A stretch of 64,000 bases of DNA from a virus. The stretch covers positions 1 to 64,000 of IMG/VR virus record IMGVR_UViG_3300000956_000002; one strand, given 5' to 3'. The position numbers were made by a program, and so were the translations under genes. The notes below the pieces were generated by a model that worked only from the letters and a program-made list of their open reading frames with translations, had not been told where the DNA came from and searched no databases. This document shows positions 3,757 through 62,265 of the stretch, piece after piece (the first letter of the stretch is position 1; every line of letters starts with the position of its first letter).

Positions 3757-3813
3757 ATACGGAATCTATCAAACTATTTCCCGTAATCAATATCTATTTT
3801 ACGGAATACGGAT
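3757..3813. promoter_or_regulatory. Cluster of TTACGGAA-type operator half-sites
   Basis: Four related words lie within 57 bases: ATACGGAAT at 3757, TTCCCGTAAT at 3777, TTTTACGGAATACGGAT at 3797..3813 with two overlapping half-sites. They match halves of the palindrome TTCCGTAATTTACGGAA found elsewhere in gaps between genes. They overlap the leftward promoter, so repression of the ardA operon by the phage repressor is a natural inference. Confidence 0.6.
3763..3790 (-). promoter_or_regulatory. Leftward sigma70-like promoter of the ardA operon
   Basis: On the minus strand TTGATT (3790..3785) is followed after 16 bases by TAGATT (3768..3763), a reasonable -35/-10 pair. It lies about 125 bases upstream of the first gene and inside the operator cluster. 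No other promoter-like pair is evident closer to the gene. Confidence 0.45.
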
Positions 3814-3825
3814 AACGCGCTGGAA

Positions 3826-4020
3826 ATGAACGAAATAAAAATGTTTGCGCTAACCTCCGATTTTTCACGCTATCAAACAGTAAATCACGACGACACCCAC
3901 CAAACACGCATGGATAAAGGGCCAAATGCACTTCAGCCACTCCGAAAATCGACTTCCAGGCCCTCAAAATCGCATTTCACCCTTTGTTTATCGGCCCAGA
4001 AGCGTTGTCGTCCGATTTAA
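3826..4020 (+). other. Doubtful short open frame in the non-coding block
   Basis: A 64-codon frame beginning MNEIKMFALTSDF. It has no good ribosome site, an unusual composition rich in Thr, Ser and Gln, and no link to a neighbouring gene. I list it only because it is the best open frame between the operators at 3813 and position 4050. It is more likely part of a non-coding region. Confidence 0.15.
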
Positions 4021-4106
4021 ATGCTCAACAATCAAACATCCATTCATCCAAATTAATTGCAGGGATTGGGGAACGAGGAAAGACGGGCTTCTTTGTCAGT
4101 CCTAAA

Positions 4107-4128
4107 AATGTTAGTCACGTCTAACATT
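4107..4128. repeat. Perfect 8-bp inverted repeat
   Basis: AATGTTAG and CTAACATT flank a 6-base centre (TCACGT). It stands alone in the gene-free block and is not related to the TTCCGTAA operator family. It could be a protein-binding dyad or a hairpin of a structured transcript. Confidence 0.5.
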
Positions 4129-4519
4129 GGCCTGGTCGCCAAAATCTGCATTCCGATTCAACTCTCGAACGATCCCCGCTCCACTCGATACGCTCGCTTT
4201 TTGGATGACATTCGGACACCACCGGAGCTAAGTAGCATGATTGCAGGCTGTCACATCACAGTGTGGATGTGGTAGTCGTGGGTTTAATTGCGTGTTTTGA
4301 AGTGGAGCCGAATTGAGGCCGACGACCTGGCCCACATACGCGCGCGTGAGCAGAAAGCGATCGGGGGTATGCCGACGGGTCGCGGTTTTTCTCAGTTATG
4401 TGGTCAGCACACACATGCTTGGATTTTCAGGCTCGAATTTTGGCAGGTGGATTTTCGGGTTGATCGAGCGAATGGAATTTACGGAAAGCGGGAGTGAGAT
4501 TTTTGGTCGAATTTTGAGA

Positions 4520-5040
4520 CAGTTATCCCCACGTCAATAACTGCGACGGAACGAACGTTCTCACGATCCCCTGGAATGAGGAACCCTTCCGGTCAGCGGT
4601 AAAGGGTGGAGCGTGGCGTGAGACGGGTTTCCCCTCTTTCGAGGGAACTGACTGTCGAGCCTGTGGCATCCTCTGGGAATGGTGGTTTAAACCGGTCCAA
4701 ACTTGCAGCACTTGGGCTCTCTTCGGTGTGTTGTTGGTGACGCTGGGGGCCGGTTAAGGCTTCTAACAGCGCCGCGGATGCTATGGGGTTTTGGAGATGG
4801 GTATCCAGGCCGCGGGGTGCGAATGCAAAGGAGCCGCCTTTTTGGCGAGTCGGTTGGCATTGCAACTTAAGCATGGCGGCAATGAACTCGAAGTTACGGA
4901 TTTGGTCAAGGGAGAAAAATGGGTATTGCGTAATTTCCGGAATGATGTATTTCTAACCGTATAGGGACCGCTCCACGCGGAACTTTCGAGCCCCGCTGCC
5001 TGCGACTTAAGCAATCTCGGCACGGGGCTCTTTCTTTTCT
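4520..5040 (+). ncRNA. Candidate structured RNA ending in a terminator
   Basis: From about 3640 to 5070 no frame on either strand looks protein-coding. The part from 4520 is dense in short complementary segments: CAGTTAT/ATAACTG (4520..4526 and 4537..4543), a CCCTC-TTTC-GAGGG hairpin near 4636..4650, CCGC/GCGG near 4970, and a final long GC-rich hairpin with a T-rich tail. The translated shadows on the minus strand look like those over rRNA or other structured RNA genes (Arg, Pro, Ser, Leu rich). Large ornate RNAs such as GOLLD and ROOL are known from phages, often near tRNA genes. I cannot show that this is one of them. Confidence 0.4.
4988..5040 (+). terminator. Rho-independent-type terminator
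   Basis: GAGCCCCG (4988..4995) pairs with CGGGGCTC (5023..5030), extended by TGCC/GGCA inside after one bulged C, and is followed by TTTCTTTTCT. It reads on the plus strand and closes the gene-free block just before the promoter of the rightward operon. Confidence 0.7.
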
Positions 5041-5042
5041 GT

Positions 5043-5070
5043 TTGACATCCGTGATCCGTAGATTACGGT
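5043..5070 (+). promoter_or_regulatory. Rightward promoter overlapped by an operator
   Basis: TTGACA (5043..5048), 16 bases, then TACGGT (5065..5070), with the dyad CCGTA-GAT-TACGG at 5057..5069 lying across spacer and -10. The dyad belongs to the dispersed TTCCGTAA-type palindromes. The first gene starts only a few bases downstream, so the transcript would have a very short leader. Binding of a repressor here would block the whole rightward operon. Confidence 0.6.
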
Positions 5071-5076
5071 TTGGCC

Positions 5077-6347: not shown

Positions 6348-6475
6348 AAAATAAAACGATAGAACCGTGGGCGATTTGGGGATGGAAGATTCATCGTCCG
6401 GTCGAGAAAACAGTGAAGCGCAAGAAGGCTTCAAAGAAACGGCGCTCCCAGCCCGAACTTTTCCAGGCAGCATGA
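6344..6475 (+). CDS. Small basic protein (43 aa)
   Basis: Begins MKNKTIEPWAIWGWKIHRPV and continues with a Lys/Arg-rich tail (KRKKASKKRRSQPELFQ). It overlaps the PP-loop gene by ATGA and the next gene by ATGA, which supports it as a real coupled gene. Basic charge suggests nucleic acid binding. Confidence 0.5.
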   Translation: MKNKTIEPWAIWGWKIHRPVEKTVKRKKASKKRRSQPELFQAA

Positions 6476-11488: not shown

Positions 11489-11767
11489 ATGAAAGCCACC
11501 ACACCGACACCGGGGAAGAGAACGCGACATATCGAATTCGAAATAGACGCCAATTTGCTGCCTAACGATCAGGCTGTTTTAATCGTGCTTAACGGAAAGG
11601 TTGTCGCGCACATTGCGCCGGCGGATGACGACCCGGCTTCGATTTGCGTTCACAGTCCGAATTTTGACGGGACGCGCGCTGACCCGTTTTCAAAATCCGT
11701 GACGTTTGATCACGGCGGGAATGGGATGCCGCCGCATATCATGATCAAGTTTGCGGAGAGGGAGTGA
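11489..11767 (+). CDS. Hypothetical protein, 92 aa
   Basis: Begins MKATTPTPGKRTRHIEFEID. It is beta-rich (VLIVLNGKVVAHIAPADDDP) with a glycine-rich late part. It has its own promoter-like sequence and no close neighbour on the same strand until 14248. It overlaps the convergent GGRGI gene by 23 bases. Constitutive expression in a lysogen is possible. Confidence 0.55.
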   Translation: MKATTPTPGKRTRHIEFEIDANLLPNDQAVLIVLNGKVVAHIAPADDDPASICVHSPNFDGTRADPFSKSVTFDHGGNGMPPHIMIKFAERE

Positions 11768-12413
11768 AATTCCTATTGACATTTTTACGAACGGTTCCCT
11801 TTGGTTCGAAAAGCATTTCGGTCGGCCATCCGTTTGATATTCTGGAGTGAATTCTGCTCCACGGTGTTTGTTTAATTTCGCACCAATCAGTCAGAGTTTT
11901 GGTTTCTCCATTGAGGGTAATCCAGATTGTGTCTCGACGGTTTTTCGCTTGGTTTGTCCGAGGAATCCAGAGGCAGTTTCCTGGCTCGTAATTTCCATTC
12001 ACATTCTTCCGCTCTATTGAGTAACCGAGCGGACACTCACCCATGTCCTCCAAAAAGTTTAAAAACCCGCCCTTTCCCAACCATCGTTCACAAATCTTGA
12101 TTCCTCTGCCGCCATAGTCTGGATATGCCTTTTCATTAGGGTTTAAGCATCGGCTTTTCATGCCTGCGAAAATCCGGTAGGTTTTTCCGCGGGATTTTCC
12201 ATGAGTAAGGTGGCATTTCCCTTTCATGCTGACCTTATGGCACCCGCACGACTTCGTGTGTCCGCGCACGACGTTGCTCATAAAAACGTCGATCGGCACG
12301 CCGCACTCACACACGCACTGCGCTATAATTTTGTATCCATTATTTTCGGAACGCTTCCATCCAGTGATCGTCAATTTGTTGAACTTTTTGCCAACCGCCT
12401 CTTCCTTCGTCAT
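11745..12413 (-). CDS. GGRGI-type putative homing endonuclease (copy 2)
   Basis: Starts at MTKEEAVGKKFNKLTITGW (an in-frame ATG at 12455 lies upstream). The N-terminal part has a strand-rich unit with CVCECG and SCGC cysteines (zinc-ribbon-like). The core carries MKSRCLNP, DYGGRGIKICERW, FLEDMG, YSIERKNVNGNYEPGNC and NRR. The C terminus has the ITLNGETKTLTDWCEIK module also seen twice in copy 1. It lies directly downstream of the terminase gene on the same strand, separated by 146 bases with a perfect operator palindrome. Position next to a conserved gene fits homing. Confidence 0.75.
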   Translation of the reverse strand: MTKEEAVGKKFNKLTITGWKRSENNGYKIIAQCVCECGVPIDVFMSNVVRGHTKSCGCHKVSMKGKCHLTHGKSRGKTYRIFAGMKSRCLNPNEKAYPDYGGRGIKICERWLGKGGFLNFLEDMGECPLGYSIERKNVNGNYEPGNCLWIPRTNQAKNRRDTIWITLNGETKTLTDWCEIKQTPWSRIHSRISNGWPTEMLFEPKGTVRKNVNRNFTPSPQT

Positions 12414-12531
12414 AAACAGAAGCACCCGCGCCCCAAGAAAGTAGTCCCGACACATGGCGTGTCGCAGTCTTGGAGCGGGGTGAAAATTTGAGTTTTGTGT
12501 TCAAAGGCTGGACTAAAGCCTAGAACAATCA

Positions 12532-12548
12532 TTCCGTAATTTACGGAA
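12532..12548. promoter_or_regulatory. Perfect 17-bp operator palindrome
   Basis: TTCCGTAATTTACGGAA, with 8-bp arms around one central T. This is the best member of the dispersed family. It lies downstream of the terminase stop and upstream of copy 2 of the GGRGI nuclease. No promoter is obvious around it, so it may act as a roadblock site. Confidence 0.7.
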
Positions 12549-12559: not shown

Positions 12560-14191
12560 TTATCGTCCAGCGATGCGTAAATGCTGGATTGCCGGCTGAT
12601 TGCTTTTTGCTCTTTCTGGAGTGTTTAGGTACTCGAGGATTTCGCTCCTTAGTCCGTAACGGAGGGCATCAAAACAGTGCTTAAGTGGATCTTTGGGATC
12701 AACGATCTTGTTTGTGCCGCGGCGAATCTCTTGAAGGGACCGTTTTACGTTTGGACAGTTGTTGCCGACGAACAGGCGTTTTTCGCGTAGAAGCATCCGA
12801 ACCAACTTAACGTCATCCTCAACGGTGTGGTCTGCCTTGGAAACCCCGACAAGCTCTATTTGTCCTTCGGTGACTTTGAAAATCATGGCGGCATCTACGC
12901 TATCGTAAGCTGGATTGTACCGATCAGTTGATGACGTGTCGGACCAATGGCGCCAGAGAAATCCAGGGAAAGTCGGAAACCACTTCTTTTTGTAATGCTC
13001 GTTGATTTGGTCCATCCTCGCCAGTGCTTCGAGCGTGATGTCCTTCGTTGAAATTTCCGTTTTGATGTAAACGATTTCCTCCAGAACGCAGACGTAGGGA
13101 ATGCCGTGGTCAACTACGATGTCCAGAATGACGATTGCGCTGTTTACTGACCCGAGGTCCCATCCACTGGCCAGTGTTTCCGTGCTCCGATCAACTGCGA
13201 GTTTTCCCGGAGGAAAATGAATCGGCGGAATGATCAAGTCAGAAAATAATTCCAGTCGGCGCCCACCCGATTTAGGCCACTTGCCTTCGACGTAGATTTC
13301 GTATTCCTCCGGTGGCGCCGATTCGTAACTGGCGATAAGGTCAACGCGCTCGCGATGTTCGAGTTTAACGTTGTCGTTCAGTTGGATTTCAATGAGGCCG
13401 AGACGTTTTTGGAATTCGCGCGCCTCTTCGACCGGGAGTTTGTTTTGCCGAGTTGGATAATCGGGGTCGGTTCGGTCGCGATAAAAAAGCTGCCAAGCCC
13501 AATGATCTTCGCCTTCAAGCGCCGGATTGGTGTCAGAAATCCAGAAGTGATCTTCGTATTTAACGCCGTGCGCGCGCAGGTTGAGTGTGGTGAAGTTGAA
13601 GATGTTTCGAGTTTTGAACGTGGAAAGCTCGATCACCCAAATGGCGGAGAAACGAAGCTGCTTTGTTTTGGCCGCAATTTCATTCTCGTTGTCGATCGAA
13701 AATAGTCGGCACTCCGATTCGCCGCCGAACCTGTTGCGGATTCTGAAAAAAGGTGTTCGAGATTTCGCATCGAGTTTAGTGCTGCCGACCGGGTTCCCTT
13801 CGTCATCCTTGGCGCCGCGCACAAACGTCGTGTATTCGAACACGGCGTCTGGATCATCACCAGGCTCGGTGCTGTTCCCGACGTTTTCGCGCCAGAGCGG
13901 GATGGCGTACTCGATCAGATCCGTCCAACTTCCTCCGTCTGTGGCCACTTTGTACGAGGTCGTGAACAACCCGACTTTTGCTCCATTCGTATTCCAAAGA
14001 TGGGCGCAAATCTTGTGGCAGATGGCGATGGATTTGCCCGTTTTACGGCCTCCACTGACCAGTAAAAAGCGGTCCCGGTTGTAGAGAACTTCGAATTGCT
14101 TGTCGAACAACGGTGGGCGCCATGGCCCATCATCATCCTCTAGGGCATTTAAAACAGGGGACGTTTCTGAGTGTGGGGTTTGAATCGACAT
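12560..14191 (-). CDS. Terminase large subunit
   Basis: The motor that pumps DNA into the capsid. The 543-residue product has a Walker A motif SGGRKTGKSIAI near residue 45, a middle with IWVIELSTF (Walker B-like), and a C-terminal RNase H-like nuclease part with ASGWDLGSVNSAIVILDI and HCFDALRYGL that carry the metal-binding aspartates. An in-frame ATG at 14209 lies within the operator, so 14191 is preferred. The gene is transcribed opposite to the portal and capsid genes, starting 56 bases from the portal, which is unusual. No small subunit is recognised in the window. Confidence 0.85.
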   Translation of the reverse strand: MSIQTPHSETSPVLNALEDDDGPWRPPLFDKQFEVLYNRDRFLLVSGGRKTGKSIAICHKICAHLWNTNGAKVGLFTTSYKVATDGGSWTDLIEYAIPLWRENVGNSTEPGDDPDAVFEYTTFVRGAKDDEGNPVGSTKLDAKSRTPFFRIRNRFGGESECRLFSIDNENEIAAKTKQLRFSAIWVIELSTFKTRNIFNFTTLNLRAHGVKYEDHFWISDTNPALEGEDHWAWQLFYRDRTDPDYPTRQNKLPVEEAREFQKRLGLIEIQLNDNVKLEHRERVDLIASYESAPPEEYEIYVEGKWPKSGGRRLELFSDLIIPPIHFPPGKLAVDRSTETLASGWDLGSVNSAIVILDIVVDHGIPYVCVLEEIVYIKTEISTKDITLEALARMDQINEHYKKKWFPTFPGFLWRHWSDTSSTDRYNPAYDSVDAAMIFKVTEGQIELVGVSKADHTVEDDVKLVRMLLREKRLFVGNNCPNVKRSLQEIRRGTNKIVDPKDPLKHCFDALRYGLRSEILEYLNTPERAKSNQPAIQHLRIAGR

Positions 14192-14227
14192 TTCCGTATT
14201 TGCTTGCATTTTACGGAAATTACGGGA
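14191..14227. promoter_or_regulatory. Operator sites between terminase and portal genes
   Basis: TTTCCGTATT at 14191 and TTTTACGGAAATTACGGGA at 14209..14227 give an inverted pair with a long centre plus an extra half-site. They lie in the 56-base divergent gap between terminase (minus) and portal (plus), so both directions could be governed from here. Confidence 0.6.
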
Positions 14228-14247: not shown

Positions 14248-16836
14248 ATGATCGATCTCAACATCCTCAAAGACTGCGGCATCTCGGCGGAGACGCTGAA
14301 GGATAAGTTCACGCTGAAGGCGCAGCAGGATGCCAAGGCGCGGTGGAGCGATCGACTGGAGTTTGGTGAAGCAGGGCAGAAGGAAAAGATAGGGCGCTTG
14401 TTGGCGCGGATTTGGGCGCGGATCGAGCAGGGCCGGAATTACGGGATCAAACATTATCGGATTTACGAGGCGATCGACGATTCATGGAATTCACCTTTGA
14501 ACCAGGTCACGCCTTCGATGTTGTGGTCGCTGATCGACAAGGATGTGTCGCCGGATACCACGATAGAGAAGCTGAAGTCATGGGGGATTCGGGTGGAGGA
14601 TTACGTTCACGAGACGCCGGATCCGAAAACGCCGGGGAAAACTCAGAAGCAGGTAGAAATTCCGGCCTTCATGCGGCCGCGGGTGAGTTTGGCGAAGAAT
14701 TACACGGAAATCCGCTGGGCGACGTTGGTGAATGATCGGAAGGCGGTGCCGTTTTTCAAATACGAGCCGGCGATCGCCAACCAAGTGACGCAGATGCGGT
14801 GCGAAGTGATTACCGCGCGCGTCGAGGAGATGGCCAATCAATACAACTACCGCGAGTTGGATAAGCAGATGCGCCTGCGGTTGTTGAAATATGGCAGGCA
14901 ATTCAGTTTTCCGCTGGAAGCATGGCATTGGGAATCGCAGTTGGTGGGGGCCGACAGCGGCTATGCCGGCGTGCCGAAGAAGGATGGGGAGGAACGGACA
15001 GAATACGCGTCGGCCGGTGAATCGGCGGATGAGAACGTGACGATCGATGGGACGTATTCGGGGAACGCGGTTGAGGCCATGACGGAAGAGGACGGCGCGC
15101 TGGGAACAGCGAGCCCCACCCCAAAGGCGAAGTATATCGAGGCGACGGTCAAGGAAGGCATCCGGTATCACCTGCCGCATCCAGCGCGGACGTATTGCGA
15201 CCTGGCGCATTGGGCGGCGACGTTCAACTCCGACAGCGGCGCGCGATATGCGGGTTACTGGAAAGTGATGCGCTTCGGCGAACTGGCGGCGTGCCGGGAT
15301 TATTGGAACATCGATCGCATCAAAATTTCGAATTCGGGCAGTTGGTACACGGCGGGAAAAGGAATTTTCGAGAACGTGTATCCGTGCGTGATGGAATTTC
15401 CGTCGGCGGTTGGACAGAGCGCCGGGGTTGGCGAACACGACGGTGAACGAGTAGTCGGCGACGGGTTCTACGCGAGCACGATGGAGGATAGCGGGATTCT
15501 GGTGAATCACTATTTCGAGAAGCTGAACCCAAAAGAGAACGGGCTGGGCGATTACGATTACGACGTGTGGTTCCGTTTCGTGGTGGCGGCCGATGGCACG
15601 GTGATTTACTGCGAGCCGCTGCCATACTGCCCGGTAGGGTATGTGGGATACGATGCGGATGAAGCGAATGTTTTCCAGTCGAGCATGATGCTGGAGATCA
15701 TTCCGTGGGAAACGCATCTCAACAACCTGTTTTCCCAATACATCATCAGCGTGATCCAGAATTGCTACAACATCACGCAGGTCGATACTGATATTGTTCC
15801 GGAGGATGCGATCCAAGGGCTTGGGAAAATTCCAAGCCTGGCGAACCTCACGACGATCTTAAGATTTTCCGGTAACGAACTGGCCAAGCGTCAGAAAGAA
15901 GTCCGCGCGTTATACAGCGAGCGGTTGTCGCTGTTGAACACGCAGGAAATTGCGCAGGCGATCAAGACGTGTTTGGAACTAACAGAACGCCTACTGGTGA
16001 TGAGCCCGCAGGAAATGGGACAGGCGGCGAGCCACGAGCAGACGCGCGAGGAGGTTCGAGTGGTTTCCGCGAATTCGAGTTCACGATTGGAATTCACGGG
16101 CAACGCGATGGAGCCGTGGACCGACAGAATCAAGCGCATCAACTACGAAGGGCTCATGGCTTATGGCGACGATGAATTTTACGCCCAGGTCCCGTGCTCG
16201 CCGGACCTTCAAGATAAAGAAACGCGCGAAGGTGTTCTTCAGGCCCTCGGGTTCACGTACGAAGGGATCGACGACGAAACGGGGCGGTTGACGGTCAAGG
16301 CCAGCTTGAAGGAATTGAAACGGATGGGCGGCGGGTCGAGCGAAAAGACGGCGATTCCGTATGACAAATTTGTGGCCAACCGGGATTCGCGCGATCGCAT
16401 CAACGAACGCGAGAACGCGCAACAGCAGGTGGCATTTATCGATCGGGTGCTGGCCAACCCGATGCTGATGCAGGCGGTGGGGCCAGACCAGGGCATTGCG
16501 ATGATGAATCGCGTGGCGCGCGGATTGGGATTTGATCGCGACTTCAAGCTGGTGAACAAGATGAACGATGCACAGATGTTGCAGCAGCACACCGAGCAAA
16601 TCATGCAGGGCGTGCAGCAACGGCTTGAGCAAAACAACCAGCAGATGGCCGAGCAGATTAAGGGCATCGTGGATTTGGTCGGGAAGAAAAACGCCGAGCA
16701 GGATGCGCAGATCAAGGCGCTGGCTGGATCGCAGATGCGCGCCATTCGTGGATTGCCACCTGGAGCCGGCGGGATGAACGAAATGCCTGGGATGGAATCG
16801 CCGATGCAGTCGCCGATGGACCAGATGGTCGCCTAA
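14248..16836 (+). CDS. Portal protein
   Basis: The 862-residue product is called portal from position (next to terminase, before scaffold and coat), length (P22-type portals are about 700 residues or more) and architecture. It has a large mixed core and a C-terminal coiled coil rich in Gln (TEQIMQGVQQRLEQNNQQMA, around residues 775 to 800) that would fit a barrel, followed by a Met/Pro/Gly-rich tail. The start at 14248 follows the operator and is preferred over an upstream in-frame ATG at 14113, which would overlap the terminase gene. No motif is diagnostic, so the call depends on context. Confidence 0.75.
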   Translation: MIDLNILKDCGISAETLKDKFTLKAQQDAKARWSDRLEFGEAGQKEKIGRLLARIWARIEQGRNYGIKHYRIYEAIDDSWNSPLNQVTPSMLWSLIDKDVSPDTTIEKLKSWGIRVEDYVHETPDPKTPGKTQKQVEIPAFMRPRVSLAKNYTEIRWATLVNDRKAVPFFKYEPAIANQVTQMRCEVITARVEEMANQYNYRELDKQMRLRLLKYGRQFSFPLEAWHWESQLVGADSGYAGVPKKDGEERTEYASAGESADENVTIDGTYSGNAVEAMTEEDGALGTASPTPKAKYIEATVKEGIRYHLPHPARTYCDLAHWAATFNSDSGARYAGYWKVMRFGELAACRDYWNIDRIKISNSGSWYTAGKGIFENVYPCVMEFPSAVGQSAGVGEHDGERVVGDGFYASTMEDSGILVNHYFEKLNPKENGLGDYDYDVWFRFVVAADGTVIYCEPLPYCPVGYVGYDADEANVFQSSMMLEIIPWETHLNNLFSQYIISVIQNCYNITQVDTDIVPEDAIQGLGKIPSLANLTTILRFSGNELAKRQKEVRALYSERLSLLNTQEIAQAIKTCLELTERLLVMSPQEMGQAASHEQTREEVRVVSANSSSRLEFTGNAMEPWTDRIKRINYEGLMAYGDDEFYAQVPCSPDLQDKETREGVLQALGFTYEGIDDETGRLTVKASLKELKRMGGGSSEKTAIPYDKFVANRDSRDRINERENAQQQVAFIDRVLANPMLMQAVGPDQGIAMMNRVARGLGFDRDFKLVNKMNDAQMLQQHTEQIMQGVQQRLEQNNQQMAEQIKGIVDLVGKKNAEQDAQIKALAGSQMRAIRGLPPGAGGMNEMPGMESPMQSPMDQMVA

Positions 16837-19322: not shown

Positions 19323-19347
19323 TTTCCGTATTCCGTGAGTTACGGAT
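19323..19347. promoter_or_regulatory. Operator site before the coat gene
   Basis: TTTCCGTATTCCGTGAGTTACGGAT combines three half-sites, TTTCCGTA, TTCCGTGA and TTACGGAT. It lies in the 67-base gap between scaffold and coat genes. A TTGACC follows at 19356, but there is no room for a promoter before the start codon at 19372, so this looks like a site that acts on transcripts passing through. Confidence 0.55.
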
Positions 19348-28204: not shown

Positions 28205-28217
28205 TTTTTCCGTAAAA
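28205..28217. promoter_or_regulatory. Operator half-site upstream of the tailspike gene
   Basis: TTTTTCCGTAAAA lies 23 bases before the tailspike start codon and 115 bases from the start of the divergent CTERM-protein gene. It has only one strong arm; a weak CGGGTTAC follows. It belongs to the dispersed family by sequence and by its place in a gap between genes. Confidence 0.4.
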
Positions 28218-28239
28218 TCCGGGTTACTGAAGAATTCGT

Positions 28240-33616: not shown

Positions 33617-33662
33617 TTGACGGTCCGATGGGTGAACGTTACCGTAATTACGGAATACGGAT
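33617..33662 (+). promoter_or_regulatory. Promoter with an overlapping operator
   Basis: TTGACG (33617..33622), 17 bases and TACCGT (33640..33645), with the perfect 12-bp dyad CCGTAATTACGG at 33642..33653 covering the -10 and followed by another half-site TACGGAT. The arrangement is the same as at 5043: a TTGAC-type -35 with the -10 inside the operator. Confidence 0.55.
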
Positions 33663-38860: not shown

Positions 38861-39058
38861 TTCAATGAAACAAATCGCCCTTCAAAGCGCCGAACCTCAC
38901 GCGGGCTGACAACCGGCCTGACGGCCTGAAATTTACCCAATTCGGCGCCTTGAAAGGCGGCTTTGCTATCCGGTGTCATTTATCATGGCAGCGTGAGATG
39001 CCGACCCCACGGTGAGAGTTTATTGTTTTTTACGCAAGGTTTTTCCGTCAAATTCGGT
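38861..39058. other. Gene-free gap with inverted repeat, possible origin
   Basis: About 200 bases without a gene. GCGCCGAA (38887..38894) pairs with TTCGGCGC (38941..38948), flanked by partly matching outer parts (CTTCAA and TTGAAAG). Between them is a tandem GGCCTGAC/GGCCTGAA. A T- and A-rich segment and an operator follow at 39021..39067. It lies next to the replication genes and heads the leftward replication operon, so an origin or a regulated promoter is possible. Confidence 0.4.
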
Positions 39059-39067
39059 TTACGGAAA
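39040..39067. promoter_or_regulatory. Long-spaced operator near the methyltransferase 3' end
   Basis: TTTTTCCGTCAAATTCGGTTTACGGAAAC has arms TTTCCGT and ACGGAAA separated by 12 bases instead of the usual 1 to 3. On the minus strand TTTGACGGAAAAACC overlaps it and could be a -35. It lies just downstream of the C5-methyltransferase stop and upstream of the HNH and replication genes. Confidence 0.45.
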
Positions 39068-46010: not shown

Positions 46011-46070
46011 ACTACGGCTTACGGACCAAAAAGAAATGACTTGCGTAATATACGAAACGATGTATCGTAA
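46011..46070. promoter_or_regulatory. Degenerate operator half-sites
   Basis: CTACGGCTTACGGAC near 46012, CGTAATATACG at 46044..46054 (inverted 4-bp arms) and ATCGTAAATTAC at 46064 all lie in the 74-base gap between the 46072 gene and the 45620 gene. They are weaker versions of the palindrome and could tune the leftward operon. Confidence 0.4.
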
Positions 46071-46071
46071 A

Positions 46072-46275
46072 TTACTTGGATGACGGTTTGCTCATCTCTT
46101 TGAGCATGTCCTTCTCATCCTTTGCGACTTGCGTGAGCACAGCACGATCACAATACGGCCCGATAGATTCGCCTTTGTGTGCGGCGACAACGGACGCGCG
46201 TCGGTGCGTTTCCAGCGCAAGGTTGACTGTGATGTTTGGGTTCTTTCGTTCCTCAGCAGGGGTGAGCTTTCGCAT
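46072..46275 (-). CDS. Small RHH-like regulator of the immunity region
   Basis: 67 residues. NITVNLALETHRRASVVAAH (strand and helix) and the following helix look like a ribbon-helix-helix. It is divergent from the HTH repressor across a shared operator, the place where Cro-type regulators are found. It is the first gene of the leftward early operon. Role inferred from position. Confidence 0.5.
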   Translation of the reverse strand: MRKLTPAEERKNPNITVNLALETHRRASVVAAHKGESIGPYCDRAVLTQVAKDEKDMLKEMSKPSSK

Positions 46276-46290: not shown

Positions 46291-46316
46291 TTCCGTAATT
46301 TACGGATTTACGTCAA
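46291..46316. promoter_or_regulatory. Immunity-region operator and leftward -35
   Basis: TTCCGTAATTTACGGA at 46291..46306 is almost the perfect palindrome, followed by another TTTACG. On the minus strand TTGACG (46316..46311) lies just upstream of it, so the operator sits where the -10 and spacer of the leftward promoter would be. It is between the two divergent regulatory genes. Confidence 0.65.
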
Positions 46317-46345: not shown

Positions 46346-46735
46346 ATGCCTGAAATCAATATAATCCTCAAACATGCCAGAAAATCGCGGGAATTAACGC
46401 TCGCACAGGTGTCGAAAGACACCGGAATACCACTCACGACACTGAACAGTTGGGAGCGCGGGGCGAATTTTCCGCGCGGGAAAAATCGGGAAATCATCGC
46501 GGAATACTATAAGATGCCGAAGGAATCGCTCGATTATTCGCTGGTGAACTCATCTGGTGGCCGAGAGTTCGATATTGGGCAAATCTCGCAGGCCATGGCT
46601 CAATCTGAATACGAGACAAGGCCAGTGATGCTTCATAAGTCTTACTGGAAAATGGCGGAAGATGTTCGAAAGAGCGCTGGCGACGTGGATTTCAATGAGA
46701 TGTTCGCGCGGCTTCTGAAGGCTGAGAGCAAGTAA
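46346..46735 (+). CDS. HTH (Xre-type) repressor
   Basis: 129 residues. Residues about 5 to 55 contain LKHARKSRELTLAQVSKDTG, IPLTTLNSWERGANFPRG, a typical lambda-cI/Xre HTH with NSWERG in the recognition region. The C-terminal part (about 75 to 129) is not a LexA-like protease; it is helical and may dimerise. Short repressors without a protease domain are common. It is divergent from the early operon, with the strongest operators of the family on one side, so it is the best candidate to bind the dispersed palindromes. Confidence 0.7.
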   Translation: MPEINIILKHARKSRELTLAQVSKDTGIPLTTLNSWERGANFPRGKNREIIAEYYKMPKESLDYSLVNSSGGREFDIGQISQAMAQSEYETRPVMLHKSYWKMAEDVRKSAGDVDFNEMFARLLKAESK

Positions 46736-46790: not shown

Positions 46791-46833
46791 TTGCTTCGGA
46801 GTTTCCGTAGTATACGATTTACGGAAATTTACG
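46791..46833 (+). promoter_or_regulatory. Promoter-like pair with overlapping operator
   Basis: TTGCTT (46791..46796), 16 bases, TACGAT (46813..46818), with TTTCCGTA at 46802 and TTTACGGAAATTTACG at 46818..46833 as operator halves. It would drive the HNH gene and the glycan cassette. The half-site overlaps the start codon region, so repression is likely. Confidence 0.5.
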
Positions 46834-54242: not shown

Positions 54243-57200
54243 CGCGCCATCCCCCGCCCGACGCGCGAAAGACTCGGCGCTCTGAGACTGACGCGATTGG
54301 TATTCTGATCGCGCTGCCGAACTCCAATCATGGCGCCAGCTTGCGCCCAATTCTGCTGGGCCTGCTGGATTTCAGTAGCGAGATTGGCTCCGGGTTGAGC
54401 GGCGGCGCGGCGCATCATTTCAGCGCGCTCGATGGGGGTCATTCGGCGGGTCAGTGCGCGCGTTTCCGGATTGCGCGAGCGCCAGTAATTTTGCACGGCT
54501 CTCACCGGATCCTTATTGCCCATGCGCAAGTTGGCCTGGACGGCTTCGCGTGCGGCGCGTTGGAATCCGGCGCGATCGCCCCGGAAAGCTGCGTTATCCA
54601 TCTTCTGCTTCCACGGGGTAGATTCGTCAATGCCGCGGGCGACAGCGCCTTTATAGGCTGGACGAATGAGATCAGGCGTCGCGAATCGTTTGATGTCGGC
54701 GACGGCGTTGGCGCCGGCGCGTCGGCCTTCCTGAGAGTCGAGGCGATTGATGACGATCTTGGAATCCGGGATGAATTTGGCAGCCATGTCAGGCAGACCG
54801 AACATGGGATCACCGCTGGCGACCATTCCGTGAATCCAAGATGCGATGGACTTGCCCGCTTCCCAAACGGCGAGGGTGGGTTCAAAGCTGGCGCGCGCCG
54901 GGGTGTTGGCCGGGATGAGGAGGTTGCCGAGGATTCCCAACAGCGGCACGCTTTCGAGCCCCAGGCGGGCAACACCGGCGGCGCCGCGGCCAAGCGACTG
55001 TTCCTCCCATGGCAGGCGGTTTTGCGATTCCTGATTGTAGAGCGCCCGGCGGAGCATGCGGGCCACGAGTTCGTCCTGAAGTTGGCCGCCGGCGCCGGTC
55101 ATGGCCAGAGCCAACCCAGCGAGGGCCATGGAGCGCGCCCACAGTTTCATCTTGCCGGTTTCGGTGTTGGTCGGGACCGCCATGGATTCCTCCCAATCAG
55201 CGAAGGAGCGAAGTGACCAGCCGTAGAGCGGCCGGACCATGTTGGACAGGAACGAGCCGTCCTTGAACTTCAACGGCGAGTTCGAGAACGATGCGCGGTT
55301 CATCTTGTTGATGAGGGTTTCGGTCAAAGCCTGGCGATTCTCGGTCGTCAGGAATTGGGCCGACTGCGGGTTGGACTGGAGTTCAGCCATGAAGGCGGCG
55401 GCGCGCTCGTCGAAGCTCATGCCCGCCATTTGATACGTGCGGCGGACTTGAGACAAAGTTTGTTCACTCAAGCCGAGTTCCTTCGGGCTCAGGCGATTGA
55501 CTGGATCGGCTGGGTCCTGAAGGTTGAACGTCCGAGGTAATCCGCCACGCATCCAGTTGGTATAGAGTTTCTTCAGAGAATCCTGCATGCCCTGGACTGG
55601 ACCCCACTGCGAATTGACGGCATTCCACATGGCGCCGTTGATGGCCGCGTCACCCATGGTCGGGAACCCGGCGTTGGCCAGGGCGAGAAGAGTGGCCTCG
55701 AACAGCCCGGCGGCGTATCCCCCAACCTTGGCGGCGCCTTCGAACTCATTGGCTGGGATGCCGCCGCGGTAGAGGATGGAGCCGAGGATTTGATTGTCGA
55801 ACTGCGCAACTTTATCCGGAAGTTGATACATGCCAGCGGCTTCGAGTTCGCGAACCGATTGCAGCCGGCGGGGGACGTTGACGGACAGTTCGCGGATGAC
55901 ATCGCGCAAGGCGGACAGGTAAGCCTCGCGGGCGTTACCTTTGAGGAGTTGTGGGACACCGCGGGCCATGCCGCGCAGTAGGTAGCCGAACGACTTCGGG
56001 ACCCCGACGAAGGCGAAACTGGCGAGGATTTTAGCCGCTTCCGCCTTGGTGAACAGCATCGAGCGCAGGGTGGTGTTGAACTCGTCCATGCCGGCGGCGC
56101 GCAACTGGCGTCCGAGGAAGATCGACGACACGTTTTTCATCGTCGTCACGATGTTTCCGATGAGCGAACCGACGAGCGCGCCAGCCCCGCGGTTGAACAG
56201 GGTGTTGAAATCCGAGTTCGACACCGACGGATTCTGTAAATCGTTCAGAACACCTTGGATGCGTGCGCGACGGTCCTTTAAGTTCTGCCAGTTATCGAAG
56301 GTTTGGCCGCGGCGCCGTTCCACTTCTTTGAGGGCAATGGCCGACTGTTTGGCGTTGGGTTTGCCAAGGCGTTCGAGTTCCTTAGCCTTAGCGCTGAGAT
56401 CGGATTCCTGGCGTTCGAGGTCTTTATCGATGGCCTGAAGGGTGGCGACGACGCGATCGACGGCCACGCTCTGCATGCCGGCGGCGTGGTTGGACACGTC
56501 ATCGGTGGTGGTGAAGCCGGTGCGATAGAACGTCCATGGCGCGAGGGCATCGCCGCGGGCCTGGGTGAAGCTGTTCTTGGCGTCACCGGATTTGCCACCC
56601 TGCTCGGCGGCCGCGACCTTTTCCTGCACGGCGTTGGACCAGTTGGATACGATGCGACCGAACTCCTCGAGTACGATTTCTTTGGCTTGGTCTGGCGGGA
56701 TGGTACTCGAGCTTGCGAGTTCGTTGGCCAAGGCATCGATCGTCGGGATGACGTTCGGGTTGGCCTTCATCATGTTGGCTGCGACCTCGAAAGCGCCGCC
56801 CTTGCCGTCAAAAATGGTGCGCTTCGCGAATTCCGGGTTGCGATCAATCAAAAGGCTGGCGCCGACCTGTGGCCAGAGTTGGTTCAAGGCAGCTTCAATG
56901 GCGGCCGGGTCGCCGGCTTTGACCGCATCGGAGACGGCTTTGGCTTGGGCAGCCAGCGAATAATCAAACATCCGCGGCACCAGATACGGGCTCGTCCGGA
57001 GGGCTGACCGGTAGTTCGAGGTCTTTTTGAGCCCGCGGGCGTCCTTGGTGATCTGTTCGTCGAACTTGGCGGCGAGATTGAGGGCGTCGAACCCGGCCTT
57101 GGATTGGGCCTCCAGATGCGCCATATCCTCGCGGGTGACGACTTCACCGGAAGAGAGGGTGTCGCCGACGTTGTAGCCGCCCTGTTGACGTTGCCATGAG

Positions 57201-60200
57201 GCGGCGAGTTCCTGGCCAACCCGTTGCTGATAGATGCGGTTGGCTTCAACGATGGAGCGGCCGCGGAGATTGTTCCACGTCAGTCCATGGCTTTTCATGG
57301 CCGCCCGCTGAGTCATCGGCAGCGTGTGGACGGCGCGTTCGAACCAATCCCGCGACCATTTGTGCATCTGATCGGCGCGATTCAAGACCGACCGAGCCTG
57401 GCCGACGAGGCGCGAACCGGACTTCGAGATGGCGGATCCGATAATGGAATACGCCTGTCCCCACAACGGCGACTGGTTTTCGGGCATGATGTGCTGGAGC
57501 CCGCCGTAGTAGTTTTTGAGCAGTTCGAGGTTGTGCGCGTGATAACGGCGGGTGGGATCGTCTGCGTTCTGCGGGTTGGCCAGCCAGTTTTCGAGGAAGC
57601 CGATGGCCTTGCGTTGTTCATCCCAGCGTTGGCGGAGATGGACGACGTTGCCGTCGAGGACTTCGTGGCCGATGCCGATGGTGGCGCCGGACATGGGCAG
57701 CGGCGGGGCGCCGTTCACGCCGGGGACGACCGGGAGGGTGATGGTAGAACCCGCGTCGTCGGCGCTGCGGAGGGCTTTGCCGGGCTCAGGACTGCCGCCC
57801 CATGAGGTTTGATCGTTGAGGATTTCCTTCCGGAGCGCCTGGAATTGAGGATCGGCTTTGATCCTGGCGGCGATTCCGCCGGCATCGACGGCTGCCAACA
57901 GGGGTTCGAGTTCGGACAACATCTCTTCTTCGAGTTCTTTGAAGGCGAACTCGGCGGACATGGCGTTGCGGACCTTACGTTCGCGATCGCGCATCGCCCG
58001 GCGGACAGTGGCCACCGGGTCTTTCGAGAAGTCGTCGGCCAACTTTTTGGCCATGCCGTTGAGTTGCGCGCGCAAGCCGGTTTGCTTGGCGAGATTGGCA
58101 GCTTGGATTCTGGCCGCGAGCTTCGGTGACTTGGCGAGGATGTAACTGGCCCACTTGAGGAGATTCTGATTGTTGAGCGGTTGGCCGGTGGAACGTTTGA
58201 TGTCCTTGTAAATTTCGAGGATGGATCGTCCGCCGCCTTGGCCGGTGAATAGCGCGTTCTGCCCCTCGGGTGTTGACGACAGGGCCGTCACCATGTCGTT
58301 GAGCGTTTGTTCCATGGCGACGGTGGATTCGCTGGCCTCGCGGATGCCGCGGAGTTCGCCCTGCAACACCGCCATGTCGCGATCGGTCTTGGCTTCCTGC
58401 TTTAGCGCCGCGGTCGCTTCTTTGATGGCAGAGTCGAACACCGCTTTGGAATTCGTGAGGATGGCCTGCGCGGCTTGATTCTGCGCCGCCTTGGCTTGCA
58501 CGCGGGCGATGAAATCCTGGAAATGGCGCGAGGTCAGTTTCTTGAACGCCTTCGAACTGTCGTCGAGAACCTGCTGGAGAATTTCTTCGAACCGCAGGAT
58601 GGATTGGCCACCTTCGCCGGCAAGGCGCGCGCGACGATATGGGTCGTTGGCCAGCCGGGCTTTCATCTGTTGGTAGGTTTCGCGACCTTGAGGATTCAGT
58701 TGCTCGCCGATGTCGCGAATGCCTTTCCAGTTGCGGTAATCGAAAGCGTTTTGGACCTTCGGATCGGCGGTGTTGACGCCGAATTGATCGAGGATGTTCG
58801 TCACGTCGGCAGCCTGGGCGAGTTGCGATTCGCCTTCGATCTGCTGCTCCATGGCGGACGACGCGAGGTTGGCGGCGTTGATCGCCTCGTTGGCATCGGT
58901 GACGAATGTGCCGCGTTCAATCGCGCGCTCAAACGCCGGTTGCGCATCATACTTCTGGCGTCCTTCGAGGATGTCGCGGTAAACGCGTTCGCTGGCCGTC
59001 GGGTCTTTGAGTAAACCTTTGAGCCCTTTCCATAATTGCGCGAACCATTGTTTGATGCGGTTGATGATGCCGGGTGAGCGTTGTTCGAGAGTTTCCTGAG
59101 CCAGTCGATCGCCGAAAATCTTGGCAGCGTACTCGTCGAGGTTGATGAACGGGTAGAGGTCCATCGACCAGCCGGGCTCTCTGACGCGGAATTGGAATTC
59201 AACGCTGCTGAGTTTTCCGTCGCGGATTTCTTGAGGCGCGTTCGCCGGCATTTTGGCCAGGCGTTCAGCTTCGAGCGCGGCGCGGTCAGCTTCTGGCAAT
59301 GATTGAATGAGGATGTGAAAGATTTCGTGCGCCGCAGCATCGGGCTTTGCTCCTTCAGCCAATCGCACGAGGCTTCCCAGCATACCGCCTTTGAGCATCA
59401 CTTGCCCTTGGAACCCACCGCCAATGTAACGACGGAGTTCGAGAGTAAGCGGACCGGAGTTCAATCCGCTGGCCTGAAAGATTTCGTGCGCTCGGAGAAG
59501 GACTTTCTTCGTCTGCGGACTCAAGGCGGAGGCATTGACGAGAGTCGGGATGTTGGCATCGGTTGCTCTGCCGATTGCCACCGATGGGCCTTGCGGCGGT
59601 GGAGTATTGACAGGTTCTGTGACGAGAGTACCTTGGCTTCCTTCCGCCTTCAGGGGAGCCGTTTGGGGCGTCGATCCTCGGGGTGACGGAGCAGCAGCAC
59701 CAAACTGTTGGCTGTTGCCGTTTGCTCTCCGCATTGTTCCCTTGTCGATATTCAACACCTGTTCGGAAGTGAGCGTCTGCGTTCCAAACTTCGGGCCGTC
59801 ATCGATCGTCACCGACTGCAACATTGTCTCATCATCGGGACGCGTCTTGACGTTCGTGACTGTGAAGCGCTCGCCTTGAATCTTGAACTTATCGCCGACG
59901 GAGAGTTCATCGCTGACAATCGGCTTGGTGTTCTTGCGCTCCTTCGCGGCGACGGTTTGGAATTTGGCATCCTGAGTGGCCTGCTTTACTTCGGAATAGA
60001 AAGCCTCGCGGTCGGACTTCCGTTTCTTCGGCGCCTCGATGATTTGATTGAGCAGCGTTTCAGGATCGATCGGGCGACCAGTGTTTTGCTCAACGCCTTG
60101 CGCGGCCACGTCTGGAGCCGATGCGGTTGGACTATCGACGAACAATTTGGGCATCGCCTTTTGGGCAGCACGCCAGAGGTCCGCGTGTTCGGATTTTTCG

Positions 60201-62212
60201 CCGGGTTTGATACGGCGCAGCTTTCCGACGTAGCCTTCAATGTCGTCCACGATGTCGGGAGCGCGTTCGTATTTTGGAGCGGACGGCTTCGGTTGAACTT
60301 GTAAGTCCGGCTTACCAGTTGGTGCAACCATTTCGGTGGGTTCAACGAATTGGTTTTGAACTGCCGACGCCGATGGTTGAACCGTTGCAGTTTCTGAAAC
60401 AGTTGGCGAGACGCGGACATTAACCGTCCCATCCTCATTCGGTGACGCGTTAATTACACCCGCTTCAGCCAATTCCTGCCACGACGGCGCCTCTGGACCA
60501 AGAACCGATTTTATGTGGGCGTCGGGAATTCCAAAGTCAGCCATCGAAATATCCATGCTTCGACCTTGCATGTTGGCTTCGAGGTTTCGCCGAATCTCAG
60601 GTGATGAGAATTGATTGGGGTCGCGCGGGAAACGAATATCGAACGACTCATCTTCCGTGGCGGATGGCTGATTGATCGGCGTGCTGGCGATTGGAACGGG
60701 CTGTTGAATGACTGGAATACTTGCGCGTGCGGCTTCCTGTAATTTGGAGAGCGCTGCACGGTTTTCTTCGGCGTAGGTCCGGCGCGCCTGTGTTCTGGTC
60801 TTTTGATTGTCGCCCACATTCGGAAGGCGAAAACCAAATCGGTCGAGTTCTCCCAAGGCAGCATCGATGATGTCGAAATCTGGAAGCGTCAGATTGCCGC
60901 GTTGAATTGTCGCGATGGCGTTACCAACTTGGCTGGCCATTTCTGGCGCCAACCCTGCGGCGTTCAACTCAGCCGCTAATGTTTGTGCCGCCTGCTGACG
61001 AATCTGCTCGACGCGAGAGACGGCAATAGGTTGTTGAATTGTCTCACCGGGCTGTTCGCCTTCCACTGTTTGGAATTCGAGTTCGTCGGTCGGCAGCATG
61101 CTGGTTAAACCAAGTCCTCGAAGATTCATCCCGGATGTGTCTTGGTAGGGATAGAACGGATTCTCCGGCGCAACGCGCTCTTGGATCGGCAACGGCGGAG
61201 GTTCGCTGACGACTTCGAATTCACCGTCCATCGTCGGAGATGCCGGCGGAGGCGTTTGTAGATCGGCGCCGGTCTGAAATTGATTTTCGCCGCGATCAAC
61301 AGCCGCACGAGCCCCGGCAGTCAGAGCGCCGATTCCCGCCGCCATGCCGCCGCCCCACCCAGCGGCTTCCCACGTCTCGGCGATGATTTCGTTCAGCGGT
61401 TTGTCGGGATCGTAAGAAGCTTTGGCGACTGCGATTTGACCAAGTTGATCGAGCGCTTCTTCCCCAGCTTCTTTGAAGATTTCGCCGGAGACATTGCGCA
61501 CGATGCTGTAGATCGAACCCGGAGGCATGTTGCGCGTCACGCCTTCGCCGAGATGGCCAGGCATGAACCGCGTCAGCAATCCAGTGATGGCGCCGCTGGC
61601 CAAGGCTGGCAGTCGCGCTTTGGCCGTAGCCATATCTGGCGAGAACCCTTGCGCTTCGTACGCCTGTTCTGCGGCATCCTGAGTTGAGCCTGCACTTTGA
61701 AGGCCGCCGACGATTGCGGCGCCAACCGGTCCAGCGTATCGACCGGCCACGATGCTCGGCGCTTGCTGGGCTGCCATGCCGCCAAAGTATTCCGCGAACT
61801 CGCGTCCGATGTCTGGATTCTGGCCGCCCAACGTTTGAGAAACGTCAGCCAACTCTGCGGAACCTGCGCGTGCATTGGATTGGAGCGCACGTCCGACTGG
61901 AGTCAGGCTGATTAAATTGAATAACCCGCCAAGACCTGATTCCAAACTTCGCAAGCCTTGAGCGCCGCCCAATGCGAGGCGTTCGAGGATGGTCGATTCG
62001 TCGGGCTGCATCTCGGCTTCACGTTGCGCTTGCTGGCGGAGACGTAGCGCGGCGCCAGATTCGCGGTAGGTGTTGATTGGTCCGCTGTATTGTGGAGTTG
62101 GTTCTGGATAAGGTTCGTAATCGTAAACAACTTCCCACTCACGGGGATCGTATCCCGAAGGGAGATCAGGACCACTCACGACTTCCCATTCGTTCGGATC
62201 GTAGGCTGGCAT
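54236..62212 (-). CDS. Giant virion protein with zincin motif
   Basis: 2658 residues from MPAYDPNEWEVVSGPDL at 62212; an earlier in-frame ATG at 62251 lies on the operator. The first residues have the motif EWEVV twice (residues about 9 and 25), and GEFEVVSE and LEFQTVEG follow near residues 330 and 375. Residue about 960 has HEIFH (DAAAHEIFHILIQSLPEADR), a zinc-protease-type motif. Long helical and Ala/Gln-rich parts follow to the end. Size, late-type orientation and the motif fit large polyvalent virion or ejection proteins of DarB kind. It is the only gene for 8 kb and its antisense frames are shadows. Confidence 0.7.
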   Translation of the reverse strand: MPAYDPNEWEVVSGPDLPSGYDPREWEVVYDYEPYPEPTPQYSGPINTYRESGAALRLRQQAQREAEMQPDESTILERLALGGAQGLRSLESGLGGLFNLISLTPVGRALQSNARAGSAELADVSQTLGGQNPDIGREFAEYFGGMAAQQAPSIVAGRYAGPVGAAIVGGLQSAGSTQDAAEQAYEAQGFSPDMATAKARLPALASGAITGLLTRFMPGHLGEGVTRNMPPGSIYSIVRNVSGEIFKEAGEEALDQLGQIAVAKASYDPDKPLNEIIAETWEAAGWGGGMAAGIGALTAGARAAVDRGENQFQTGADLQTPPPASPTMDGEFEVVSEPPPLPIQERVAPENPFYPYQDTSGMNLRGLGLTSMLPTDELEFQTVEGEQPGETIQQPIAVSRVEQIRQQAAQTLAAELNAAGLAPEMASQVGNAIATIQRGNLTLPDFDIIDAALGELDRFGFRLPNVGDNQKTRTQARRTYAEENRAALSKLQEAARASIPVIQQPVPIASTPINQPSATEDESFDIRFPRDPNQFSSPEIRRNLEANMQGRSMDISMADFGIPDAHIKSVLGPEAPSWQELAEAGVINASPNEDGTVNVRVSPTVSETATVQPSASAVQNQFVEPTEMVAPTGKPDLQVQPKPSAPKYERAPDIVDDIEGYVGKLRRIKPGEKSEHADLWRAAQKAMPKLFVDSPTASAPDVAAQGVEQNTGRPIDPETLLNQIIEAPKKRKSDREAFYSEVKQATQDAKFQTVAAKERKNTKPIVSDELSVGDKFKIQGERFTVTNVKTRPDDETMLQSVTIDDGPKFGTQTLTSEQVLNIDKGTMRRANGNSQQFGAAAPSPRGSTPQTAPLKAEGSQGTLVTEPVNTPPPQGPSVAIGRATDANIPTLVNASALSPQTKKVLLRAHEIFQASGLNSGPLTLELRRYIGGGFQGQVMLKGGMLGSLVRLAEGAKPDAAAHEIFHILIQSLPEADRAALEAERLAKMPANAPQEIRDGKLSSVEFQFRVREPGWSMDLYPFINLDEYAAKIFGDRLAQETLEQRSPGIINRIKQWFAQLWKGLKGLLKDPTASERVYRDILEGRQKYDAQPAFERAIERGTFVTDANEAINAANLASSAMEQQIEGESQLAQAADVTNILDQFGVNTADPKVQNAFDYRNWKGIRDIGEQLNPQGRETYQQMKARLANDPYRRARLAGEGGQSILRFEEILQQVLDDSSKAFKKLTSRHFQDFIARVQAKAAQNQAAQAILTNSKAVFDSAIKEATAALKQEAKTDRDMAVLQGELRGIREASESTVAMEQTLNDMVTALSSTPEGQNALFTGQGGGRSILEIYKDIKRSTGQPLNNQNLLKWASYILAKSPKLAARIQAANLAKQTGLRAQLNGMAKKLADDFSKDPVATVRRAMRDRERKVRNAMSAEFAFKELEEEMLSELEPLLAAVDAGGIAARIKADPQFQALRKEILNDQTSWGGSPEPGKALRSADDAGSTITLPVVPGVNGAPPLPMSGATIGIGHEVLDGNVVHLRQRWDEQRKAIGFLENWLANPQNADDPTRRYHAHNLELLKNYYGGLQHIMPENQSPLWGQAYSIIGSAISKSGSRLVGQARSVLNRADQMHKWSRDWFERAVHTLPMTQRAAMKSHGLTWNNLRGRSIVEANRIYQQRVGQELAASWQRQQGGYNVGDTLSSGEVVTREDMAHLEAQSKAGFDALNLAAKFDEQITKDARGLKKTSNYRSALRTSPYLVPRMFDYSLAAQAKAVSDAVKAGDPAAIEAALNQLWPQVGASLLIDRNPEFAKRTIFDGKGGAFEVAANMMKANPNVIPTIDALANELASSSTIPPDQAKEIVLEEFGRIVSNWSNAVQEKVAAAEQGGKSGDAKNSFTQARGDALAPWTFYRTGFTTTDDVSNHAAGMQSVAVDRVVATLQAIDKDLERQESDLSAKAKELERLGKPNAKQSAIALKEVERRRGQTFDNWQNLKDRRARIQGVLNDLQNPSVSNSDFNTLFNRGAGALVGSLIGNIVTTMKNVSSIFLGRQLRAAGMDEFNTTLRSMLFTKAEAAKILASFAFVGVPKSFGYLLRGMARGVPQLLKGNAREAYLSALRDVIRELSVNVPRRLQSVRELEAAGMYQLPDKVAQFDNQILGSILYRGGIPANEFEGAAKVGGYAAGLFEATLLALANAGFPTMGDAAINGAMWNAVNSQWGPVQGMQDSLKKLYTNWMRGGLPRTFNLQDPADPVNRLSPKELGLSEQTLSQVRRTYQMAGMSFDERAAAFMAELQSNPQSAQFLTTENRQALTETLINKMNRASFSNSPLKFKDGSFLSNMVRPLYGWSLRSFADWEESMAVPTNTETGKMKLWARSMALAGLALAMTGAGGQLQDELVARMLRRALYNQESQNRLPWEEQSLGRGAAGVARLGLESVPLLGILGNLLIPANTPARASFEPTLAVWEAGKSIASWIHGMVASGDPMFGLPDMAAKFIPDSKIVINRLDSQEGRRAGANAVADIKRFATPDLIRPAYKGAVARGIDESTPWKQKMDNAAFRGDRAGFQRAAREAVQANLRMGNKDPVRAVQNYWRSRNPETRALTRRMTPIERAEMMRRAAAQPGANLATEIQQAQQNWAQAGAMIGVRQRDQNTNRVSLRAPSLSRVGRGMARY

Positions 62213-62250
62213 ACTGAGGGTCCTATACTCTGAATTGGCACTTGACGCCA

Positions 62251-62265
62251 TCCGTAAATTACGGA
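62251..62265. promoter_or_regulatory. Operator upstream of the giant gene
   Basis: TCCGTAAATTACGGA at 62251..62265 is a near-perfect palindrome with 7-bp arms and a central A, followed by ATA. It lies 39 bases upstream of the giant gene's start. A rightward small RNA with terminator begins near it, so the site could govern two divergent transcripts. Confidence 0.6.

Follow-up and report, generated by a model that had tools for sequence, protein, structure and literature searches.

Dispersed 17-bp palindromes as candidate operators of a single repressor in an uncultured phage, with analogous networks in its relatives

The DNA analyzed here (the window) comprises the first 64 kb, positions 1 to 64,000, of the 80,252-b IMG/VR virus record IMGVR_UViG_3300000956_000002, in which the palindrome TTCCGTAAnTTACGGAA and its half-site TTACGGAA recur in ~19 clusters over the whole record (18 in the promoter test described below, plus the site at 5055). 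These sites precede almost every transcription unit of the phage, and they are probably the operators of one dimeric XRE-type phage repressor, encoded at 46346, that would silence nearly all of these units. The binding protein, the repression, and the route of induction are what we infer here. What is new is that relatives sharing the portal gene carry analogous networks built on different palindromes, and it is this divergence across the family that holds the greatest interest.

Number, placement, and form of the sites

The number of sites is clearly not random. With up to three mismatches, seven palindromes fall in the window (4926, 12532, 14211, 19331, 46041, 46291, and 62250), where 0.19 are expected, and nine in the full record (adding 65196 and 76385), compared with none for the reversed pattern. 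No 8-mer is more over-represented than the half-site TTACGGAA (16 copies versus 2.5 expected), which is also the commonest intergenic one, with 15 of its 16 copies in gaps, which make up a fraction of 0.142 of the genome. As a control, CG-containing permutations of its letters average 0.46 in gaps and sit there at 16%, and the best of these permutations turn out to be parts of the motif itself that overlap one another; half-sites with one mismatch are also enriched in gaps (42%). Fixed rules were used for these counts instead of a freely iterated weight matrix, which drifted to GC-rich chance matches. Nine full sites scoring at least 13/16 lie in gaps and none in genes, with 0.5 expected overall, and this comparison of gaps with genes, which an earlier sequence-only reading of the window had proposed, agrees with its claim that the sites fall nearly always between genes. 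Every place listed in that reading holds the motif or half-sites; its description of them as palindromes stands for 12532 and others, but those at 3757-3813, 4479, 14211, and 46803-46833 proved to be half-sites or direct-repeat arrays. Sites beyond its list lie at 4926-4942 within the window and at 65196-65234, 72943-72976, 76385-76401, 80065-80079, and 80188-80195 outside it.

Strong sites follow TTCCGTAAnTTACGGAA, in which two half-sites, TTACGGAA and its complement, stand around one base, and the best are near-symmetric 17-bp dyads with 6-8 of 8 pairs matched. Such symmetry suggests a dimeric binder and gives the sites no orientation. Weaker sites consist of single half-sites (4479 and 80188) or of direct half-sites 7-10 bp apart (33648, 14211, and 46819), often beside an inverted one, and half-sites are found on both strands. 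A reading of the sites as hairpins or RNA elements was dropped: Rfam gave nothing at the sites, and a loop of one base together with the direct-repeat variants is unsuited to a hairpin.

Distances from sites to start codons range from 2 to about 180 bp; gene starts in the record are those of our own gene caller, except that of the portal-like gene, which was reset to 14248 by homology. At the left end, a half-site array (3757..3813) containing TTACGGAATACGGATAA, which recurs at 33648, lies upstream of the HNH gene 3639(-), and a single half-site TTACGGAA (4479..4486, plus strand) falls within a 1.5-kb non-coding stretch. A half-site with the palindrome TTGCGTAATTTCCGGAA (4894..4942) and the palindrome ATCCGTAGATTACGGTT (5055..5071) follow ahead of the 5181 unit, the latter over the -10 position of TTGACA-17-TACGGT (5042). 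The palindrome TTCCGTAATTTACGGAA at 12532..12548, exact with 8-bp arms as previously described, lies 76 bp upstream of the HNH gene 12455(-) and directly after the stop of the terminase large subunit gene (12560..14209, minus strand; a PHROG terminase), which has sites at both flanks. Between this gene and the divergent portal-like virion protein gene (14248..16836, plus strand), the family-defining gene with 70 relatives, inverted and direct half-sites (14191..14227) overlap TTGAGC-16-TAAAAT. Further along, a half-site and the palindrome TTCCGTGAGTTACGGAT (19323..19347) stand 24 bp before the ATG at 19372, a half-site and a degraded palindrome (28205..28231) 15 bp before that at 28240, and CCGTAATTACGG with a direct half-site (33639..33662) 11 bp before that at 33667, over the -10 of TTGACG-17-TACCGT (33617). 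Three half-sites (39030..39066) overlap TTGACG-18-AACAAT upstream of the 38860(-) operon. The early/replication operon, which starts at 45997(-), has a half-site and the palindrome TTGCGTAATATACGAAA (46011..46070) upstream, and the palindrome TTCCGTAATTTACGGAT (46291..46307) lies between the divergent genes 46275(-) and 46346(+), with a minus-strand TTGACG 3 bp before it. Inverted and direct half-sites (46802..46833) end directly before the ATG of the HNH gene 46835, and the palindrome ATCCGTAAATTACGGAA (62250..62266) lies 37 bp before the minus-strand start of a giant gene at 62212. Outside the window, sites precede the divergent 65168(-) and 65358(+), 72922(-), 76372(-), and the integrase gene 80011(-).

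Matches to sigma70-like promoters overlap 9 of 18 clusters, where positions drawn at random in gaps give 3.9 (P = 0.007), and TTGAC lies no more than 35 bp from 8 of 20 sites (3.2 in the control; P = 0.011). The sites at 5055 and 33639 cover -10 boxes, in line with an earlier claim of promoter overlap, and at 65217 a half-site lies inside the spacer of TTGACA-16-TAAAGT. Sites over -10 boxes or in spacers are in classical operator positions, and because approximately half of the clusters overlap such matches, operator action would explain most of the sites. The further claim that 12532 and 19323 leave no room for a promoter is not firm, as the gaps measure 104 and 67 bp and the start codons lie 76 and 24 bp downstream.

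The phage is most likely temperate, given its tyrosine integrase (78701-80011, minus strand) and the 46-bp direct repeat common to both ends of the record (window 1-46; 80207-80252), an attachment core whose sequence corresponds to the 3' half of tRNA-Ala(GGC); ARAGORN found no complete tRNA gene, and the tRNA identity is a reading of the sequence. The half-site at 80188 lies ~12 bp from this core. In a lysogen, the 46346 repressor would bind the ~19 clusters and directly silence nearly every unit, including the early replication operon, terminase and portal, tail genes, HNH genes, integrase, and its own promoter. Paired half-sites would bind strongly, and single or directly repeated ones more weakly. 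Most sites coincide with promoters or follow them closely and lie 2-80 bp ahead of a start codon, where a bound repressor would block initiation or early elongation, and the in-operon sites at 19323 and 33639 may double as roadblocks.

Analogous networks in related phages

Portal alignment yielded 70 relatives. Forty-five partial loci were too short for judging networks, and 23 comparison contigs, namely 22 portal relatives and G897, which shares the attachment core, were read whole or as stored pieces; an integrase was found in 16 of the 23. When gaps were searched blindly for near-palindromic windows that resemble one another, with shuffled controls and even-centred windows for comparison, the known motif of the present phage was recovered in 7 gaps, and the new motifs were TAAACTATnATAGTTTA in 11 gaps of G883, TATAAYCTnAGRTTATA in 6 gaps of G889, and TAGGCAAAnTTTGCCTA in 4 gaps of G885, with weaker sets of 3 gaps each in G891 (TTTAGC-N5-GCTAAA), G902, and G897. 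The palindrome of G887 is TATACTGTnACAGTATA. Shuffled controls for 17-bp windows reached a maximum of 2 gaps, even-centred windows gave 3 at most, equal to their controls or one above, and 44 bacterial control loci gave no more than 2 gaps per 17-mer cluster. Each motif is concentrated in its own phage: TTACGGAA occurs 16 times here versus 0-4 times in the 23 contigs, ATAGTTTA 14 times in G883 and 0-6 times elsewhere, and ACAGTATA 8 times in G887 and 0-2 times elsewhere. The 17-bp odd-centred geometry is thus common to these relatives, with a different sequence in each. A palindrome scan of IMG/VR found the exact palindrome in 25 other contigs with one copy each, and therefore no second copy of this network.

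Two candidate motifs were rejected as networks, that of G893 as a Shine-Dalgarno string and that of G890 as a tandem array, the latter with a repeat unit of ~36 bp (TGACTCGTTC...TGGTTCTCTC) and situated within a gap of 0.9 kb at 48506-49350 (L189). G026 has CCCCTATGTCCGGAGGGGTG-like units repeated in tandem over a short stretch at 23145-23260 (L092). In G897 (L211-L213), TTATACGTTACGTATAA-like palindromes lie at 2283/2307, 29823/29847, 41692/41716, and 5144, three of these four places holding pairs 24 bp apart.

These differences bear on whether the phage exploits a regulator of its host through the sites, for which the CtrA sites carried by alphaproteobacterial phages (PMC9437464) provide a model. 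In a search for the host, the tRNA-Ala 3' half matched nothing in one phylum sample of 297 genomes and the portal protein nothing in further phylum samples, two of which share a phylum. The motif set is confined to this record, G897 has the same 43-bp tRNA-Ala core yet only one TTACGGAA, and each related phage has a different palindrome, which makes this explanation highly improbable.

The G883, G889, and G887 sequences, which are fragments or single genomes, allow individual positions to be compared. In G883 and G889, sites lie 0-8 bp before the same orthologues, those encoding the integrase and the MRYDP, MPTFYEIA, MPNIRPSDF, and MAILRL proteins, and in G887 before two of these five. Sites also occur inside genes (4 in G883, 4 in G889, and 5 in G887), where shuffling predicts close to none. 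Two of the 13, G883 58091 and G887 21344, are at a gene edge near the next start. Seven others fall at the same homologous codon in sets: G883 11559, G887 29919, and G889 40503; G883 34363 and G887 8419; and G889 13080 and G887 4101. In the first set, the codons are CTA, CTG, and CTC, all leucine, each fitting the consensus of its phage. The site of the second encodes LYYDSI within surroundings that are ~29% identical, and GAT versus GAC again fits each consensus. Between phages, the sites at shared codons thus differ by synonymous or conservative changes. The remaining four (G883 38473, G889 19926 and 36106, and G887 17204) have no counterpart site at the homologous codon. The similarity within the first set is partly protein constraint, and the argument therefore rests on the whole pattern, which points to an operator set that may keep its places while its specificity changes. 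It is conceivable, although we advance it tentatively and at somewhat less than even confidence, that the whole set, intragenic sites included, has kept homologous places while being rewritten to new palindromes, serving as symmetric, dimer-bound roadblocks, a counterpart of stoperators. Several members of this uncultured family of temperate phages carry symmetric networks that share a geometry and differ in sequence, which raises a question that sequences can test, namely how a repressor and ~20 sites change specificity jointly without loss of lysogeny, and intragenic sites at homologous codons would be a natural record of such co-evolution.

The same sites also speak for true stoperators, dispersed sites that mainly halt elongating RNA polymerase, as proposed for L5. 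Some of the relatives' intragenic sites share a homologous codon and differ there by synonymous changes specific to each network, the structural-gene sites of the G883/G889/G887 clade fit a roadblock role better than a promoter role, and in the present phage the sites at 19323 and 33639 occupy short gaps between genes that run on one strand. An elongation block is more plausible in relatives with intragenic sites. In this genome, a read-through block at sites such as 19323 is possible but required by nothing; there are no full sites in genes, half of the clusters overlap promoter-like matches, and the dyads are symmetric, as opposed to the asymmetric, orientation-dependent L5-type sites (PMC9283540). 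For these reasons, we consider stoperators as the main function unlikely.

A position ahead of almost all transcription units could also mean that an activator binds the palindromes, or that they serve as promoter elements specific to the phage, to turn genes on in lytic growth, and the sites of G883 and G889, which end 0-8 bp before most start codons and contain -10-like TATNAT/TATAAT, lend this some appeal. On the other hand, a classical activator would hardly work from sites that cover -10 boxes or stand 2-16 bp before an ATG, the forms with direct repeats or a single half-site speak against a core promoter, the structural-gene sites of the relatives are hard to fit, and the proteins searched included no phage RNA polymerase. 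We regard this explanation as very unlikely.

The candidate repressor and neighboring genes

The best candidate for the binder is the 129-aa XRE/HTH_3 protein encoded at 46346..46735 (plus strand), which matches Pfam HTH_3 (4.6e-6; 27.0 bits versus a cut-off of 23) and the PHROG transcriptional repressors, with a weak, below-cut-off match of RstR/DicA type. Its gene starts 38 bp behind the 46291 site, an operator-like palindrome that adjoins both this gene and the divergent 46275(-), and the sites flank it as the sequence-only reading had noted, with 46291 and 46041 on one side and 46802-46833 on the other. This gene order makes the 46346 protein the likely binder. An XRE gene also lies 0 bp downstream of a site in G885 and 11 bp downstream of one in G891, where all three sites directly follow TTGAC. 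The 46346 protein has no PDB sequence match and therefore does not resemble in sequence the TipsytheTRex repressor of known structure, whose type pairs an HTH with a stoperator domain; its C-terminal half is unassigned. Searches of IMG/VR gave no close relatives of the repressor or terminase, searches of genomes none of the terminase, and searches of annotated phages none of the phage DNA, terminase, or portal.

The binder could instead be another small phage protein, in particular the product of the 67-aa ribbon-helix-helix-like open reading frame at 46072..46275 (minus strand), which immediately follows the 46291 site and adjoins the one at 46041. Its ParD match is weak (E = 0.012) and below the cut-off, its single-sequence model shows no ribbon, and it is an XRE gene that stands behind the site in G885 and G891. 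In the G883/G889 clade, where no XRE gene was found, a diverged sigma-region-4-like HTH protein is shared (G883 51236-51667; G889 2409-2864) and is absent from the network-less G890, which makes it a candidate binder there, in a very small sample. For the present phage, we find a binder other than the XRE protein quite unlikely, and the 67-aa product may possibly be a lytic regulator (Cro analogue).

Several points weigh against the 46346 protein acting as a dimeric repressor at these sites. None of the relatives with a network encodes a close homologue of this protein, and the G883/G889/G887 clade, with the clearest of the relatives' networks, has no recognisable XRE gene. The direct repeats vary in spacing (7-10 bp), more than a simple dimer would account for. 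Single-sequence models from AlphaFold gave no information, that of the repressor being unusable, and the sigma70 matches come from general consensus scans.

The record also encodes a DnaB helicase, an exonuclease, ArdA, and a C5 methylase, in addition to the integrase, terminase, portal-like protein, and XRE regulator. Three paralogous HNH endonuclease genes (3001-3639, 11745-12455, and 34897-35625; PHROG 374/3377) were missed by Pfam. The giant 2658-aa gene (54236-62212) has no PHROG or NCBIfam match, and its kin are proteins of 3574-4833 aa in G883, G889, and G887. The protein encoded at 47301-48695 has an N-terminal FtsK gamma (KOPS-binding) domain and homologues in G026, G884, and G885; an Rfam tRNA match within its gene (31.5 bits, 149 nt at 47648-47796) is possibly spurious, and glycosyl- and methyltransferase genes follow. 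The 8-9-mers AACCCCAT/AAAACCCC are in excess (11 versus 1.4 expected; 16861, 17682, and 21238 in the window, and elsewhere), often directly before ATGs of structural genes without a Shine-Dalgarno sequence.

Comparison with known systems

Documented cases in which one repressor silences a whole phage genome from dispersed sites come from few phage groups. The small HTH_3 candidate beside divergent operators is reminiscent of the DicA/RstR type, to which it has weak model matches, although the known members act at one control region and are not known to act genome-wide. The phiC31 repressor, with its conserved inverted repeats (CIBs), and P1 C1 use repeated operators at many intergenic places under one repressor, and differ from this phage in repressor family, sequence, and host.

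L5 and the cluster A phages, and also Streptomyces phage R4, have many dispersed repressor-like sites, mostly in short gaps and including the repressor gene (PMC6550527, PMC9283540, PMC10276819), and the ~19 clusters over 80 kb are likewise dispersed in gaps. The 13-bp L5 sites are asymmetric, monomer-bound, and oriented with transcription, and their reversal abolishes repression (PMC9283540, PMC6550527). The L5 repressor is a monomer with two DNA-binding domains, whereas the present phage combines 17-bp symmetric dyads with a small XRE candidate; its best sites show neither the asymmetry of a ~13-bp L5 site nor an orientation along transcription. The sequence-only reading had seen the L5 stoperator pattern here: a dispersed network around an XRE gene is well supported, but the specific likeness to L5 is not, the sites being symmetric, unoriented, and in about half of the cases over promoter-like matches. 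The network thus resembles a multi-operator or stoperator system in its working, yet departs from L5 in the stoperator features tested.

One repeated motif at the promoters of many phage units, the kind of feature represented by CIBs and by SPBRE, is found here, the promoters being consensus predictions. SPBRE is a repeated element in the promoter regions of many genes of Bacillus phage SPbeta (PMC10516654). Its master repressor, MrpR, has a tyrosine-recombinase fold and the element is 15 bp long, in contrast to the XRE candidate and odd-centred 17-bp dyad described here, and SPBRE was predicted from sequence long before MrpR was found (PMC10516654).

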